Shown here piece by piece: positions 1 to 7,077 of a stretch of 7,077 bases of DNA. The stretch is from positions 1-7,077 of the forward strand of contig JALGZO010000716.1 of NCBI GenBank assembly GCA_025774865.1. Direction: 5' to 3'. Numbering within the stretch: the first letter of the stretch is position 1; each line of letters opens with the position of its first letter. The DNA comes from a bacterium (GTDB lineage: Bacteria; ARS69). The notes below the pieces were generated by a model that worked only from the letters and a program-made list of their open reading frames with translations, had not been told where the DNA came from and ran no database searches. The position numbers were made by a program, and so were the translations under genes.

Positions 1-281
1 CCGCCCTGGTTGCGACCGGCGCACTGGTCCGCCACCGGGATCCACGAGAGACCGAGTCCCGTCACGGACGCGATCGGCTGAAATGGCCTCGAGGAAACGG
101 CGACTACATAGAGGTCGCCGGGAGCCGCGGTGACGCTGGCCGACGTGGACACGACCGAGCCGGACGCCGTGCCCGTCACGGTTTCCTGGTGCAGGATCGA
201 AGCGAATGCCACCGGAGCAGCGCCGAGGAGGCTCACGGCGAGCGCGGCGGCGATCGCAATAGGGGGGCGGATTGACCTCAG
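1..281 (-). CDS. Secreted protein of unknown function, N-terminal part only (runs off left edge)
   Basis: Reading leftwards from 281, 93 codons are open to the edge. The product begins MRSIRPPIAIAAALAVSLLG and has a textbook Sec signal peptide: two arginines, a hydrophobic Ala/Leu/Val core and an AFA|S cleavage site near residue 27. The mature part is rich in Thr, Ser, Val and Gly, looks like a beta-sandwich, and contains the segment VTGLGLSW followed by DQCAGRNQ. I recall similar segments in secreted metagenomic proteins that carry extracellular adhesion or fibronectin-like domains, but I cannot name the family firmly. The start is inferred. An in-frame TAG lies at 296-294 and no ATG, GTG or TTG follows before the signal peptide, so CTG at 281-279 is the best candidate, with AGGAAG eight bases upstream. 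A 218-bp gap and inverted repeats separate it from the upstream operon, so it may have its own promoter. The C-terminus and true function lie outside the window. Confidence 0.72.
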   Translation of the reverse strand, partial: MRSIRPPIAIAAALAVSLLGAAPVAFASILHQETVTGTASGSVVSTSASVTAAPGDLYVVAVSSRPFQPIASVTGLGLSWIPVADQCAGRNQG

Positions 282-289
282 GGGTCGGA

Positions 290-295
290 CTTCCT
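290..295 (-). promoter_or_regulatory. Probable ribosome binding site for the CTG-started secreted protein
   Basis: On the minus strand AGGAAG sits eight bases before the CTG at 281-279. It matters because no ATG, GTG or TTG is available in that frame after the TAG at 296-294, so this site supports the unusual CTG start. ATT at 260-258 is the other candidate but would remove most of the positively charged n-region. Confidence 0.4.
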
Positions 296-330
296 AACGG
301 CTTGGCAGTGATGTGAGCGCGGGAGATTCG

Positions 331-367
331 AGAGCCAGACACGACCGGTGGATCCGTGTCTTGCTTT
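331..367. repeat. Imperfect inverted repeat (possible hairpin or operator)
   Basis: AGACACG at 337-343 is the exact reverse complement of CGTGTCT at 355-361. Pairing extends outward to 331 and 367 with one mismatch (336/362) and one G-T pair (332/366), giving a stem of up to 13 positions around an 11-base loop. There is no adjacent T-run on the minus strand, so it is not a standard intrinsic terminator. Its place 50-86 bases upstream of the secreted-protein start fits a regulatory site, but no function is shown. Confidence 0.4.
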
Positions 368-381
368 GTAAGCGAGCTTAC
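368..381. repeat. Short palindrome GTAAGC-GA-GCTTAC
   Basis: Two perfect 6-base arms are separated by two bases, directly next to the larger inverted repeat that ends at 367. Compact dyads like this are typical of binding sites for dimeric helix-turn-helix regulators. The spacer is too short for a stable RNA hairpin loop, so a DNA-level role is more likely if it has one. No regulator gene is in the window. Confidence 0.35.
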
Positions 382-499
382 CCATTCTGATCAATGAGTT
401 GCAACAGCTCAGTGATGAGAAGTCAATGCAGATTGCACATGCTGGGGAAGAAGCGGGTTCCTTGTCGCGCCTCCGCCCGTGTGATCGCTCGGTGGTCTC

Positions 500-3400
500 T
501 CAGCTTCCTTCCGTGGCCACCTGGCCACGTCCGCCCTCGAGAGCGCGAGCCCGCTCCGCGGCCGCGCCCGCTTCTTCCGGCAACCCGGCCTCGACGTAGG
601 CGGCCGCCAGTGCGGTCCATACGCTCGCCCGCCCCGCGTCCAGTTCCACCGCGCGCCGAAGAAACTCGATCGATCGCTCGACCTCGCCCATTCGCCCGAG
701 CGAGCCACCGATATCGGCCAGGGCGGCCGCCTTCTCGGCCCCGCCGATCCGTCCGCTCTCGACTTCCGCCATCAGCTCCAGCCTTTCGGCCCGCTCCAGG
801 GCGCCCGGGAGAGCGGGAGTGGTCTCGCTCGCGCGCCTCCAGAGCTGTGCCGCCTCCGTGTACTCCCCGAGGGATTCGCGGATGGTGGCCGCGTCGGCGT
901 AGGCGTGGAGATCGTCGGGATGCGTCGCCGCCGATTGCTCGTAGAGCGACGCGGCGAGACGTAGATTCGCGGGCTCGATCGAGCCATCGAACTCCGCATC
1001 GTGCCAGGCGGCCAGCGCCCGGTCGCAGGTCTCCGGATGCTCGTCCTCGGCCATCGGCTCCTCGGCGAGGACGATGCGTTCGCGAATCCACGCCGCTCTC
1101 CGAGCCGGGTCGCCCACCAGGGCCGCGAGCTCCGCCCGCTTCGTCGTCACGGCGGACTCGTCGGGCAGCATCTCCGCGAGCCGCGAGTATATGGCGTGGG
1201 TCTCGTCGAGGAAGCCGTGCCTCTCGAAGATGCGGGCCAAGTTGTAGAGCACGCCGCCGTCTTCCGGCGCGAGTTCCGCCGCCCGGCGATACTCGCGGAT
1301 CGCCCTCAGCAGCTCCCCGTCATTGTAGTAGGCGATCCCGAGCGCCCGGTGCCTCTCGACCGACTCCGGCTCGCGCTCCAGCTTGCGCAGCAGATGCACG
1401 ATGTTCAGCTGCGCCGCGATCGCTCGCCGCATATGACGCGTGGGACTGAGGTCGCGCACCTCGAGCAGCTTGGCCACGGCACCATCGTAATTCCCCTGGT
1501 CCATGAGAACACGCGCCAGGTTGAAGTGGGCGGCGGCGAAGTCGGGCTTCGCCTCGACGGCCTTGCGAAACTCCCGCTCCGCCTCGTCCAGCGCCCCTTC
1601 GCGCCAGTGGATGAAGCCAAGCGAGTTGCGCGCATTGACGTCGTGGGGAAACTCGGAGAGCCGCGCCATGAAGTAGCGCTTCTTCTCCGGCCCATACTGA
1701 AGCGCCGAGCGGACGTTCTGGTCCTCCAAACCGGCGTAGACGGCAGCGACCTCCGCCTCCCGGACGGACATCGTCCGGTGGGTGAGGAACCCGAGATGGA
1801 GCCGTCGCGAGATCGCCTCGTAGTCACGCATCGTGTCGGCGAGGTCGGGTGCGCCGTCGGTGTTGCTGAGGTAATCGAGGATCGATTCCTGATGACGGAC
1901 CAGCTCCAGCGCCGCATCGACACCCTCATCGTCCTGGTCCGCACGAAACTGCACGTGGGGCAGGTCGTCGGTGTTGACCGTGGTGAACCCCTGCAGCATG
2001 TCGCCGAGGCCGTCCTCGCCGATCAGGAAGAAGCTCAGGAACTTCTCGGGGCGGTCGATGCCGAACTCCTCCAGACCCGACTCCACGTAGATCGGTTCCA
2101 GGCGCGAGACGAGATCCTCGTAGTCGATGTCCAGCCGGTCGGGCGTCCCCAGCATCAGGATCTGCGTGGAACCGTAGATGGCCCAGACGCTCATGTGCGG
2201 AAAGACGCTGCGAAAGGTGTTCAAAACGACGTGGATCGCATCACCGGGGAGCGGTATCAGGGCCCACTGACAGAAGACGCCACCGGGCTTCAAGCGATCT
2301 TTGACGAGCTCGTAAAATTCCTGCGAGTAGAGCGTCCACGAGTCGAACATCTTGGGATTCGTCGCGTCGGAGATGATCAGCGAGTACTTCTTGTCGGCCA
2401 GAAGCAGAGCGTTCCGCCCGTCGTTGACCACCTGCGTGAACCCGGGGTGGTTGTAGACGTCGAGGTTCTCTCGTTTGAAAGTGTCCGCCACGCCTTCGAT
2501 GTCCGGATTGAGGTCCACGCACTCGAGCTCGGAGACGTAATTGACACAGGCGCCGGCCGACATCCCCGCGCCGAATGCGACCATCAGGGCGTCGTCAGGG
2601 TCTTCGTGCACCATGACGGGCAGGATGCCCAGCATCTTGAACAGCTGCACGTGCCACAGCCGCGACGAGGCTTCCTCCACCGCGTTCAGGTGAAGATCCT
2701 TGTAGCCGTTCTTGTAGAAGTCGTAGACGACGACATTGGCGATCTTCCCCTCTCGGTAGTGCAGGATGTTGGCCGAGGGGTGGGAACGCTCGAACAAGCC
2801 GCGAAACAGATTCCCGGGTGCCGCCGCCACGACCACCGCGACGAGGACCGCGAAGCCGGCCGACCACGCCAGGCGGCTCGGGCGGCGCAGGCGGGGCAGC
2901 CACGCCAGCAGACCCGCAAGCACATTCGCCGCGGCGACGACGATCACTCCCAGGTGGAGGCCCAGGTAGGGCAGCAGGATGAAGCCGGCGGCGAACGCGC
3001 CGAGGATCGCTCCGACGGTGTTCACCGCGTACACGACCCCGACGCTCATGCCTTCCCGGCGTTCCCCACGCTGGCAGATCTGTACGGCCATGGGTACCGC
3101 GACTCCCATCATCACCGTCGGCCCGATCATGATCACGGCGGTCTTGGCCGGGGTCAGCGCGCTCGAGAAGTTGTTGAACAACGGACCGTGCAGGAAGCTG
3201 AAGAGAAACGGGGTGAGATACGAGATCATCCCGATCGCGATCTCCAGGCCGATGAACCACGCGACCTGGTCACGTCTCCGCGAGAGGAAGCGGCTGTACA
3301 CCAAGCTCCCGGCCGCGATGCCGACGAGGAACGTCGCCAGAATCGACGTGAACGAGTGGATGTTGTTCTGCAGGAAGAGGTTCAGCATGCGGGTCCAGAA

Positions 3401-4237
3401 GACTTCGTAGGCCAGCGCGCAAAAGCCCGAGAGTCCGATGCCGGCCAGCACCAACTTCTGCGTCGTGTCGTACGAAGGGGGTGTAGCGGCTCGGGGGGGC
3501 GGCGGCTCGGCGCGGACCGGCGGGGCGCTCTCCCCCGTGCGTCGACTCAACCCCCAGGCGGCCAGGGCCACTCCGAGGTTGATCGCGACGGCGACCCGGG
3601 TGGTGTCGCGCATGCCCAGCGCCTGCAACAGCATGTACCCGCAGGCCACGGTTCCGATCACGGCCCCCACGGTGTTCCACCCGTAGAAGACGCCCGTCTG
3701 ACGGCCCAGGGCGCTGCTTCCGTGGGCGAACCTCTTGAGCAACACGGGCAGCGTGCCGCCCATCAGGAAGGTCGGCACGCTGATCAAGGCGAAGCACACG
3801 ACGAAGCGAGCGAGGTTGACCTGCGCGATGCCGCCCCCGCCGGCGCTGTAGAGCGCCGCGTACAGCGGCGTCGCTGCGCTCAGCAGCAGGGGGAAGAACA
3901 GCGCGTAGACTCCGATCCCCGCCTCGAGTCCCGCGTAAAGCCGGATCAAGGGCCAGGGGCGCCGGTCGATCAGCCAGCCGAGCACGAAGCTGCCGGCCGC
4001 CAGCCCTCCCATGAAGGAGCTCAACACGGTGCTGGTGGCCAGCATCGTGTTGCCGAAGACGAGAACGAGCTCCCGCGTCCAGACGATCTGATAGATCAGA
4101 CCGGCTACCCCCGACAGGAAGAAGAGGGCAACCATGCCGTTTCGCGTGATGTGCGGAGCGCTCCCGTCACGCGTCGCCGACGTGTCTTCGTCCTCCTCTC
4201 GACGTGATTGGGTCAGCGCTGATGACACTGGACGCAC
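500..4237 (-). CDS. Polytopic membrane protein fused to a spermidine-synthase-like domain and a TPR tail
   Basis: This 1245-residue protein has three parts. Residues about 36-475 are membrane-embedded, with roughly 13 hydrophobic segments, and form an internal duplication: GVAGLIYQIVWTREL (43-57) is echoed by GFCALAYEVFWTRML (271-285), and WNTVGAVIG (187-195) by VNTVGAILG (405-413). This is the layout of proteins annotated as fused MFS/spermidine synthase. Residues about 490-700 form a SpeE-like Rossmann domain: glycine loop FGAGMSAG (555-562), acidic VDLNPD (574-579), NDGRN (605-609) and SDATNP (623-628), then LYSQEFYELV. Residues about 866-1235 hold at least six TPR-like units, for example 866-933, 960-1027 and 1170-1235, suited to protein binding. 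Canonical aminopropyltransferase residues are altered (no GGGDGG, no YHE), so polyamine synthesis is doubtful. The GTG start overlaps the ancestral end of the upstream cytochrome by 25 bp and has no clear Shine-Dalgarno; Met35 is the first ATG. The substrate is unknown. Operon position suggests a service role for the multiheme cytochromes, which is inference. Confidence 0.88.
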   Translation of the reverse strand: MRPVSSALTQSRREEDEDTSATRDGSAPHITRNGMVALFFLSGVAGLIYQIVWTRELVLVFGNTMLATSTVLSSFMGGLAAGSFVLGWLIDRRPWPLIRLYAGLEAGIGVYALFFPLLLSAATPLYAALYSAGGGGIAQVNLARFVVCFALISVPTFLMGGTLPVLLKRFAHGSSALGRQTGVFYGWNTVGAVIGTVACGYMLLQALGMRDTTRVAVAINLGVALAAWGLSRRTGESAPPVRAEPPPPRAATPPSYDTTQKLVLAGIGLSGFCALAYEVFWTRMLNLFLQNNIHSFTSILATFLVGIAAGSLVYSRFLSRRRDQVAWFIGLEIAIGMISYLTPFLFSFLHGPLFNNFSSALTPAKTAVIMIGPTVMMGVAVPMAVQICQRGERREGMSVGVVYAVNTVGAILGAFAAGFILLPYLGLHLGVIVVAAANVLAGLLAWLPRLRRPSRLAWSAGFAVLVAVVVAAAPGNLFRGLFERSHPSANILHYREGKIANVVVYDFYKNGYKDLHLNAVEEASSRLWHVQLFKMLGILPVMVHEDPDDALMVAFGAGMSAGACVNYVSELECVDLNPDIEGVADTFKRENLDVYNHPGFTQVVNDGRNALLLADKKYSLIISDATNPKMFDSWTLYSQEFYELVKDRLKPGGVFCQWALIPLPGDAIHVVLNTFRSVFPHMSVWAIYGSTQILMLGTPDRLDIDYEDLVSRLEPIYVESGLEEFGIDRPEKFLSFFLIGEDGLGDMLQGFTTVNTDDLPHVQFRADQDDEGVDAALELVRHQESILDYLSNTDGAPDLADTMRDYEAISRRLHLGFLTHRTMSVREAEVAAVYAGLEDQNVRSALQYGPEKKRYFMARLSEFPHDVNARNSLGFIHWREGALDEAEREFRKAVEAKPDFAAAHFNLARVLMDQGNYDGAVAKLLEVRDLSPTRHMRRAIAAQLNIVHLLRKLEREPESVERHRALGIAYYNDGELLRAIREYRRAAELAPEDGGVLYNLARIFERHGFLDETHAIYSRLAEMLPDESAVTTKRAELAALVGDPARRAAWIRERIVLAEEPMAEDEHPETCDRALAAWHDAEFDGSIEPANLRLAASLYEQSAATHPDDLHAYADAATIRESLGEYTEAAQLWRRASETTPALPGALERAERLELMAEVESGRIGGAEKAAALADIGGSLGRMGEVERSIEFLRRAVELDAGRASVWTALAAAYVEAGLPEEAGAAAERARALEGGRGQVATEGS

Positions 4238-5486
4238 AGATCCATGGACGGATCGAGAGTCAGATAGGACTCGTGGTCGGAGCCGTGCATCGTGTGGCAG
4301 CTCAGACAGGTGACCGCCTCACCGGTGCGTTGATCGATCACGTCCGGACCCACCGGATGGGAAACTTTGTGAGCCCTCTCGTGACAGCGCGAGCACAGAT
4401 CCACATCCGTGGTCACCAGGTACTTCGAGTTCTCGGCTCCGTGCGCCACAGATCCACATCCGTGGTCACCAGGTACTTCGAGTTCTCGGCTCCGTGCGCT
4501 GTGTGGCAGTTGGAGCACTCCATCGCGTCGTGGGTAAGATACTCGCTCTTGGGCTTGCGCCCCGGCTCGTTGAAGTGACAGCGCATGCACACAACCTGTT
4601 GCTCCGCCGCGAGGAGGGATCCGGCGTTGGACGCGTGCGGGTTGTGACAGTTCAGGCAGGACTCTCCCTGCGTCAGGTGGCCGTGGAACTTCGTTTCCTC
4701 GAAGCTCTCAACTCCCCGGTGGCATTCGATGCAGAGAGTCTTCACGTCGGCCTGGATGGCGAACGAACCGTCGTCTCCTCCGGAGCCGTGACAGCGCTCG
4801 CAATCGCCCGCGGCGAACGGCGAGTGCTGGTTCTCCCGCAGGAGTCCCGTCAGAGATCCGGAGTGAGGATCGTGGCAAGCGGTGCAGTCGGCCCCGCGGA
4901 TGTCCCGGCCCCGGTGGGCCGTGGTGAACGCCTGGTCCGACTTGTGACAGTCGAAGCACAACGACGGAACGGTCTTCTGCAGAAGCCCGCTGACCCCCGA
5001 ACCGTGCGCGACGTGGCAGGAGAGGCAATCCCCCTTCGGAAGCGGATCATGAACCACGGGCCGCGCCAGCCATTCCTGGACCGGCGAGTGACAGTCCTGG
5101 CACAGGACCACGGGGCGCTTGTTCAGTTGATCCGGAAACGCCGAAGCGTGCGGGTCGTGGCACTCGCTGCATTCTCCGCGCAATGCCGGCACGTGCGGAG
5201 AGGACAGCTGGAGCTCGTCGCGCACCCCGTCGTGACACGACAGACAGAGCTCACCCTTGTCGGTGTCGAGCAGAGCGGCGTGCTTGGCGGCGTGCGGGTT
5301 GTGACACGTGGAGCACTTCCCGTCCTCGAACGCCGTATGCACGTGCTTCTTCGAAGCGTCCGCCGCGATGTCGGAATGGCATTCGAAGCAGACCGCCGGC
5401 TCGTCGACCGTGACCGGCTGGGCGATCAATGCGTGCGGCAACAGCAGCACGAGCCAGGCGCCGAGTGCTTTCGGTGGTCGGCTCAC
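4213..5486 (-). pseudogene. Secreted doubled-CXXCH multiheme cytochrome c, frameshifted by a 53-bp duplication
   Basis: The GTG start at 5486 opens a signal peptide (hydrophobic core about residues 8-21, likely cleavage after ALIA, residue 22), so the protein is exported and haem is attached outside the cytoplasm. CXXCH haem sites begin at residues 33, 59, 81, 106, 129, 154, 178, 201, 229, 252, 277, 300 and 324. Most are paired, with His-x-Pro-like residues before the second site and CHxPH or CHxxH after it, the pattern of the doubled CXXCH family (Paired_CXXCH), which implies mostly bis-His haems. A perfect 53-bp tandem duplication shifts the frame after residue 346; the read frame then ends at 4413 (357 residues, 13 haems). 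Deleting one copy restores 406 residues with three further sites (CSRCH, CLSCH, CVQCH) and a stop at 4213. The start overlaps the upstream cytochrome's stop as GTGA. Whether the lesion is biological or an assembly error is open. If real, a 13-haem protein with a short aberrant tail could still be made. Confidence 0.85.
4394..4499. repeat. Perfect tandem duplication, 2 x 53 bp
   Basis: Bases 4394-4446 and 4447-4499 are identical over all 53 positions, and the identity does not extend beyond either end. The unit encodes, on the minus strand, the HGAENSKYLVTTDVDL part of the cytochrome between two haem sites. Since 53 is not a multiple of three, the second pass is read in another frame and soon reaches a stop at 4415-4413. 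The neighbouring cytochrome modules diverge freely at DNA level, so perfect identity points to a very recent event or to a join between overlapping contig ends. Confidence 0.97.
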
Positions 5487-7077
5487 TGCCCGCCCCCCCC
5501 CGCCGGTTCACCGGGATGACACGCGTCACAGGCGTTTTCCGCAAACGGGTCGTGGGTGACGGCCTGCAGCCTTCTCGCATCTTGCGTCGCATGCGGGTCG
5601 TGACACTTGCGACAATCGAGTTGATCGCCACTGAGGCCGAGATGGAGATCCCGGAACCCGGCGTCGTCACCATCGTGGCAGGTGAGACACTGATCGGGTA
5701 TCGCCTCAGCGAGCAGCGTCGGCTCGGGGCTGTGATGAGGCTCGTGGCACTCCAGGCACTCCCCGTCCTCCGCCGGAGGATGGACGGTGCCGCTCTCCAT
5801 CCTCTTCCCCAAGCCCTCGTGACAGGTGAAGCACAGGCGGGGGGGCGCCTCCGGGAGGAGACCTGCGATCATTCCCGTGTGGGGCAGGTGGCAGGCGGTA
5901 CAGGTCCCCTCCGCGACCGGAGCGTGTGTGCTCCGGCTCGATGCGGACTCGGTCGGGACGTCGTCGTGGCATTCCATGCACACGGCGGACACCTCGCTCA
6001 CCATCAAATGTTCGTACTCCGAGGCGTGCGGCGTGTGACAGAGATCGCACTCCCTCTCCTCGAAGGGTGAATGGACCACGGTCGGTTGCCCTTCGAACAA
6101 GGTCTCGTGGCAGGTGGCGCAGAGCGCGTTTCTGTCGTCCTTAAGTAGACTCGCCCCCCCGGAAGCGTGGGGAGCGTGGCACTCGTTGCATTTCCCGATC
6201 TTCGCCGGGACGTGCACGCTCTTCTGGGTCGCCCAGTCGATCAGATCGTCGTGGCAGGTGGCACACAGCTCCGAGCGCGGGGCATTTGTCAGGCTCGCGT
6301 GATCCGAGCCATGGGGCACGTGACAGTCCAGGCACTCACCGCCGTCCAGGGGATCGTGAACGTTTTCGCTCGCCAGCTCCGCCTCGACCTCGGTGTGACA
6401 ACCGAGACAGAGGAGCGTTACGGGTTCCGAGACGAGCTTCTGCTCGGCGAGTCCGTGCGCGTCGTGACAGAGGCTGCAGTCCTGCCGGGCCGGCTCGTGT
6501 CGGGAGGCCTTGACCAGCTCCGGATGGATGTCGTCGTGGCAGTCGAGGCACAGCGAGCTCGCCGGCTGCCGCAGAAGCACGGGCTCCCGGGATCCGTGGG
6601 GGCCGTGGCAGTCGAGGCACGCCCCGTCCTCCACGGGTGAGTGGGTGCCCGCGGGCGCCACCTCGGACTCGTCGTGGCAATCCAGGCACAGCTCGACGGG
6701 GTCCTGCGAGATCGTCGCGAAGGGCTCCGGATCGCCGGGGGCCGCGTGGCAGGCCTCGCAATCGCCCTCGGTCATCGGGTCGTGAGCCGAAGCCGTCAGG
6801 AGCTTCACGCTCTCGGAGGAGTGCGGTGAATGACAGCTGGAGCACTCCGCATCCTGGACGGGATAGCCCCAATGGGCCTCGCCGAACGAGGGCTTCGAGG
6901 GGTCGTGGCAGTCGAGACACAGGGCGCGGGCTTCGCGGCTCAGAAGGCCCCCATGATCCGCCCCGTGCACCTCGTGACAAGAGAAGCAGCCGTCCGCGAG
7001 AGGTGCGTGCTGATGCTGGAAGTCGAATTCCCGGTGGTCATGGCAGTCGAAGCAGAGTTGCTCCAGCGGGCTACTGA
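5483..7077 (-). CDS. Large doubled-CXXCH multiheme cytochrome c, C-terminal part (runs off right edge)
   Basis: The frame is open from the right edge to TGA at 5485-5483, giving 531 codons less the first partial one. There is no start or signal peptide in view: CFDCH and CFSCH lie before the first possible GTG (6970), so the gene begins beyond 7077. I count 22 CXXCH sites: ten paired modules of about 40-50 residues plus two unpaired sites, CEACH (bases 6760-6746) and CDACH close to the C-terminus. The typical module reads LCxxCH, a variable stretch, HxP, then CxxCHxPH and a Leu-Leu ending, as in the doubled CXXCH family. The extra histidines supply probable second axial ligands. Density is about one haem per 24 residues, leaving little room for other domains, so an electron-wire or electron-storage role in the periplasm or outside the cell is the natural reading. 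The tail after the last haem is only a Pro/Gly-rich stub. It is translationally coupled to the next cytochrome by a 4-bp overlap. Confidence 0.93.
   Translation of the reverse strand, partial: SSPLEQLCFDCHDHREFDFQHQHAPLADGCFSCHEVHGADHGGLLSREARALCLDCHDPSKPSFGEAHWGYPVQDAECSSCHSPHSSESVKLLTASAHDPMTEGDCEACHAAPGDPEPFATISQDPVELCLDCHDESEVAPAGTHSPVEDGACLDCHGPHGSREPVLLRQPASSLCLDCHDDIHPELVKASRHEPARQDCSLCHDAHGLAEQKLVSEPVTLLCLGCHTEVEAELASENVHDPLDGGECLDCHVPHGSDHASLTNAPRSELCATCHDDLIDWATQKSVHVPAKIGKCNECHAPHASGGASLLKDDRNALCATCHETLFEGQPTVVHSPFEERECDLCHTPHASEYEHLMVSEVSAVCMECHDDVPTESASSRSTHAPVAEGTCTACHLPHTGMIAGLLPEAPPRLCFTCHEGLGKRMESGTVHPPAEDGECLECHEPHHSPEPTLLAEAIPDQCLTCHDGDDAGFRDLHLGLSGDQLDCRKCHDPHATQDARRLQAVTHDPFAENACDACHPGEPAGGGGQ
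5493..5501. repeat. Homopolymer C9 (G9 on the coding strand) at the cytochrome-cytochrome junction
   Basis: Nine identical bases lie near the last codons of the upstream cytochrome, encoding part of its AGGGGQ end, just seven to fifteen bases before the GTGA overlap at 5486-5483. Such tracts are prone to slippage in replication and to miscounting in sequencing. The G-rich stretch is also the only purine-rich sequence ahead of the downstream start, so it may serve as a poor ribosome binding site. Translational coupling through the overlap is probably more important. Confidence 0.8.

Follow-up and report, generated by a model that had tools for sequence, protein, structure and literature searches.

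The window, i.e. the whole of contig C720 (7077 nt), belongs to a draft genome of 785 contigs that is 92.65% complete with 8.3% contamination. Its minus strand encodes an upstream multihaem cytochrome (5483–7075; 22 CXXCH motifs in 530 aa), which is open at the contig end and whose stop overlaps the start of a 16-haem cytochrome gene. The latter is interrupted by a tandem duplication. The part upstream of the duplication (4500–5486) starts with GTG at 5486 and comprises residues 1–329, including a Sec-like signal peptide, CXXCH motifs 1–13, and matches to Pfam Paired_CXXCH_1; the part past the duplication (4213–4393) comprises the last 59 residues and the stop, with the remainder of the final three CXXCH motifs, and shows 64–76% identity to orthologues. 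The next gene on the same strand (500–4237) is intact and encodes a fused membrane/spermidine-synthase-like protein of 1245 aa with C-terminal TPR repeats, which matches the NCBIfam model MFS_SpdSyn above its cut-off. In the relatives' loci examined, no fused spermidine-synthase-like gene was found beside the cytochromes, with the exception of L035, where a weaker match lies 2 kb off on the other strand.

In profile searches, both parts of the 16-haem gene matched the doubled-CXXCH family of multihaem cytochromes (PF09699 and TIGR01905; E ~1e-64), with a PF09699 score of 214 bits against a gathering cut-off of 20.6 and six matching stretches in the upstream part alone. The full-length decahaem families TIGR03508 and NF041028, in contrast, match the protein just in part and below their cut-offs. 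The 16-haem cytochrome adds a member to a family already known.

The duplication consists of two 53-nt units on the minus strand (copy 1, 4394–4446; copy 2, 4447–4499), which sequence comparison found to be identical at 53/53 nt and to abut directly with nothing between them, as the preliminary description had stated. This pair is the sole exact repeat of at least 20 nt in the window and is too long for chance. The frame starting at 5486 is shifted at the duplication junction and runs into a stop at 4415–4413, giving a product of 357 aa with 13 CXXCH motifs, while the last three motifs (CXXCH 14–16) lie beyond the shift in the frame ending at 4213. Deletion of one unit restores a single frame of 406 codons plus stop, which contains 16 CXXCH motifs and ends at 4213. 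The coordinates and counts given in the preliminary description for the premature stop and for this restored frame, with its three additional motifs, all hold, and so does its expectation that automatic annotation would report two broken genes: the ORF caller returned products of 357 and 125 aa from the two-copy sequence. A search of the genome for a second copy of the cytochrome locus found none.

The locus was also compared in relatives, a check that had been proposed earlier. Orthologues of the 16-haem cytochrome were identified in two genomes from the same family as the source (L032 of genome G002, 65% identical; and L033 of genome G004, 68% identical, with the N-terminus lost at a contig end) and in a Krumholzibacteriia genome (L034, 50% identical). 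The orthologues of L032 and L034 read through with 16 CXXCH motifs, and that of L033 is unbroken in the portion that its contig contains. The gene order, with the large cytochrome followed by the 16-haem cytochrome, is common to the window, L032, and L034. None of these orthologues is interrupted at the position of the duplication, where each has one copy; L003, L033, and L034 show no tandem array there. The 59 residues past the duplication share 75, 76, and 64% identity with L003, L033, and L034, respectively, compared with 62, 68, and 48% for the part before it; this higher identity of the C-terminal part indicates that the C-terminus of the 16-haem protein has been constrained until now. 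In L032, the counterpart of the large upstream cytochrome is split by a frameshift at around 6150–6170, where a frame with 22 CXXCH motifs is followed by four CXXCH motifs in another frame; the shift may be an assembly error or a mutation.

The relation of the duplication to the assembly was analysed by a size-rank test, in which the contig list is taken to keep its original size ranking and the original length of an out-of-order contig is predicted from its neighbours. In total, 139 further contigs or contig parts, some of them masked, were sampled (~0.74 Mb of 4.7 Mb scanned), and the order was read in 122 contigs (part of C660–C684, C700–C779, C785, and C1–C20). A single size series falling in list order accounts for 81 of the 122. 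Interleaved with it is a second series, made up of longer contigs. About 30 contigs exceed the length that their place in the list allows, as if they had been lengthened after ranking. The neighbours of C720 in the list measure 4447 and 4442 nt, from which its original piece is predicted to have been 4442–4447 nt long; the first 53-nt copy ends at 4446, i.e. at the predicted boundary of the original pieces. On the simplest reading, C720 is a 4446-nt piece, of which copy 1 would form the final 53 nt, abutted to a 2631-nt piece (4447–7077) that starts with the same 53 nt as copy 2. The size-rank prediction, together with the chance calculation given below, places at 4446/4447 the point where two assembly pieces with overlapping ends were putatively joined end to end.

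Exact two-copy duplications of at least 17 nt were found in four of the scanned contigs, namely C720 (53 nt), C5 (54 nt), C680 (32 nt), and C760 (17 nt). The out-of-order contigs, which represent 30% of the bases, hold all four of these duplications and seven of the nine that are at least 12 nt long. Five candidates, these four and the 15-nt duplication of C713, were compared with the rank-predicted intervals. In addition to C720, C680 (4943 nt; rank interval, 4703–4748), where copy 1 ends at 4703, and C760 (23927 nt; a member of the second series, between 16770 and 16520), where copy 1 ends at 16533, fit their intervals; the probability of at least three fits among five arising by chance is ~5e-6. 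The duplications in C5 and C713 are off the rank-predicted end and do not fit, which means that one join per contig cannot account for every duplication. Repeats of 6 nt at the predicted joins of a few other contigs are near chance and were left out of the argument.

The other two fitting duplications also damage genes. The 17-nt duplication of C760 (L081, 16517–16550) lies in the gene for EF-Tu, which is flanked by an EF-G-like gene and by genes for ribosomal proteins. In the two-copy sequence, the C-terminus of EF-Tu is replaced and the frame is fused into the downstream ribosomal protein genes, and solved EF-Tu chains match no further than the duplication; a single copy gives a protein ending in ...EGGRTVGAGVVTEILE, followed by a stop at 396 aa. 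Loss of the EF-Tu C-terminus in a translation operon is not a credible natural state. In C680 (L102, 4672–4735), the 32-nt duplication frameshifts a glycosyltransferase-like gene, the N-terminal frame of which ends after 92 aa, and an open frame of 316 aa is restored with one copy. A 12-nt duplication in C766 (L170, 1997–2020), which is also out of order, inserts four extra residues in a monomeric-type isocitrate dehydrogenase, within a conserved stretch. Near the end of C5, a FolC-like frame is garbled from the 54-nt tandem duplication onward (L048, 5317–5426), away from the rank-predicted join.

The preliminary description had left open whether the 53-nt duplication was a recent mutation or an artefact. 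The exact repeat, the size rank of C720, the duplications in C760 and C680, and the intact orthologues strongly favour the artefact, and nothing pointing to a real mutation was found; the duplication is thus very likely an assembly artefact, in which the overlap of two joined pieces has been written twice. Pieces 1–4446 and 4447–7077 would have shared a 53-nt end overlap, and once the primary assembly was complete, a joining step would have ordered them correctly but abutted them untrimmed, so that the overlap was kept twice. We infer that a joining or gap-closing program made the duplication and that the reads would carry one copy. Most likely, the duplication results from the joining step rather than being the cause of the break, because a usual assembly would not be stopped by a repeat as short as the 17 nt in C760, which nevertheless disrupts an essential gene. 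A fixed k-mer overlap was considered as the cause and rejected on the grounds that the duplicated lengths vary (53, 54, 32, 17, 15, and 12 nt). Some observations count against the artefact: the duplications of C5 and C713 do not fit their rank intervals, the joins contain no Ns, and most of the out-of-order contigs contain no duplication. The last of these suggests that overlaps were in most cases removed during joining.

A real, recent tandem duplication of 53 bp, at which the primary assembler broke and both copies of which were restored by gap closing, would leave a truncated 13-haem cytochrome. The perfect identity of the copies is what a very young duplication would show, and a real repeat could likewise have ended a contig here; the rank-predicted break by itself therefore does not prove an artefact. 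However, the same signature occurs at 17 nt in the EF-Tu gene and at 32 nt in the glycosyltransferase-like gene, where it can be neither beneficial nor neutral; a 17-nt repeat is normally too short to break an assembly; and a piece ending at the final base of copy 1 would be a coincidence only. This explanation is therefore very unlikely, and there is little probability that the population carries, fixed or polymorphic, a duplication that leaves the cytochrome with 13 of 16 haems. Tandem direct repeats of such length can recombine in bacteria, and the preliminary description had raised the possibility that the duplication is reversible, which would turn the last three haems of the cytochrome on and off. 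Such switching presupposes a real duplication, and no evidence of it was found: neither a second copy-number state nor a recombinase was detected, and the repeat is not conserved at the site in the single-copy orthologues L003, L033, and L034. It can be regarded as extremely improbable. Phase variation was likewise rejected, as these three orthologues lack the repeat and thus show no conserved array of variable copy number.

Among known assembly errors, the double-written overlap in C720 most resembles one described by curators of genomes from metagenomes, i.e. duplicated sequence at scaffold joins with overlapping flanks, which is a local assembly error (Chen et al. 2020, PMC7111523). In both cases, a short exact copy of an end overlap stands on each side of the join and deletion of one copy mends the sequence, but the copies are separated by Ns in the published cases and by none in C720, where a gap was perhaps closed or given zero length. 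Draft assemblies of vertebrate genomes have also been described to contain false duplications (Ko et al. 2022, PMC9516828). These are similarly made by assembly, at contig ends or in wrongly filled gaps, and harm gene annotation; unlike that in C720, they are mostly long and often derive from unmerged haplotypes. A literature search for the DHS20C21 genome found no papers.

What looks like a frameshift in this draft would thus be traced to the joining step and not to evolution. Because the same error would damage at least the EF-Tu and glycosyltransferase-like genes, apparent pseudogenes and split genes of this genome need checking at out-of-order contigs. The size-rank check works without reads and can be used on other drafts in which the contig order keeps the original ranking. 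As to the organism, the real gene is most likely single-copy and encodes an intact 16-haem cytochrome, either periplasmic or exported.
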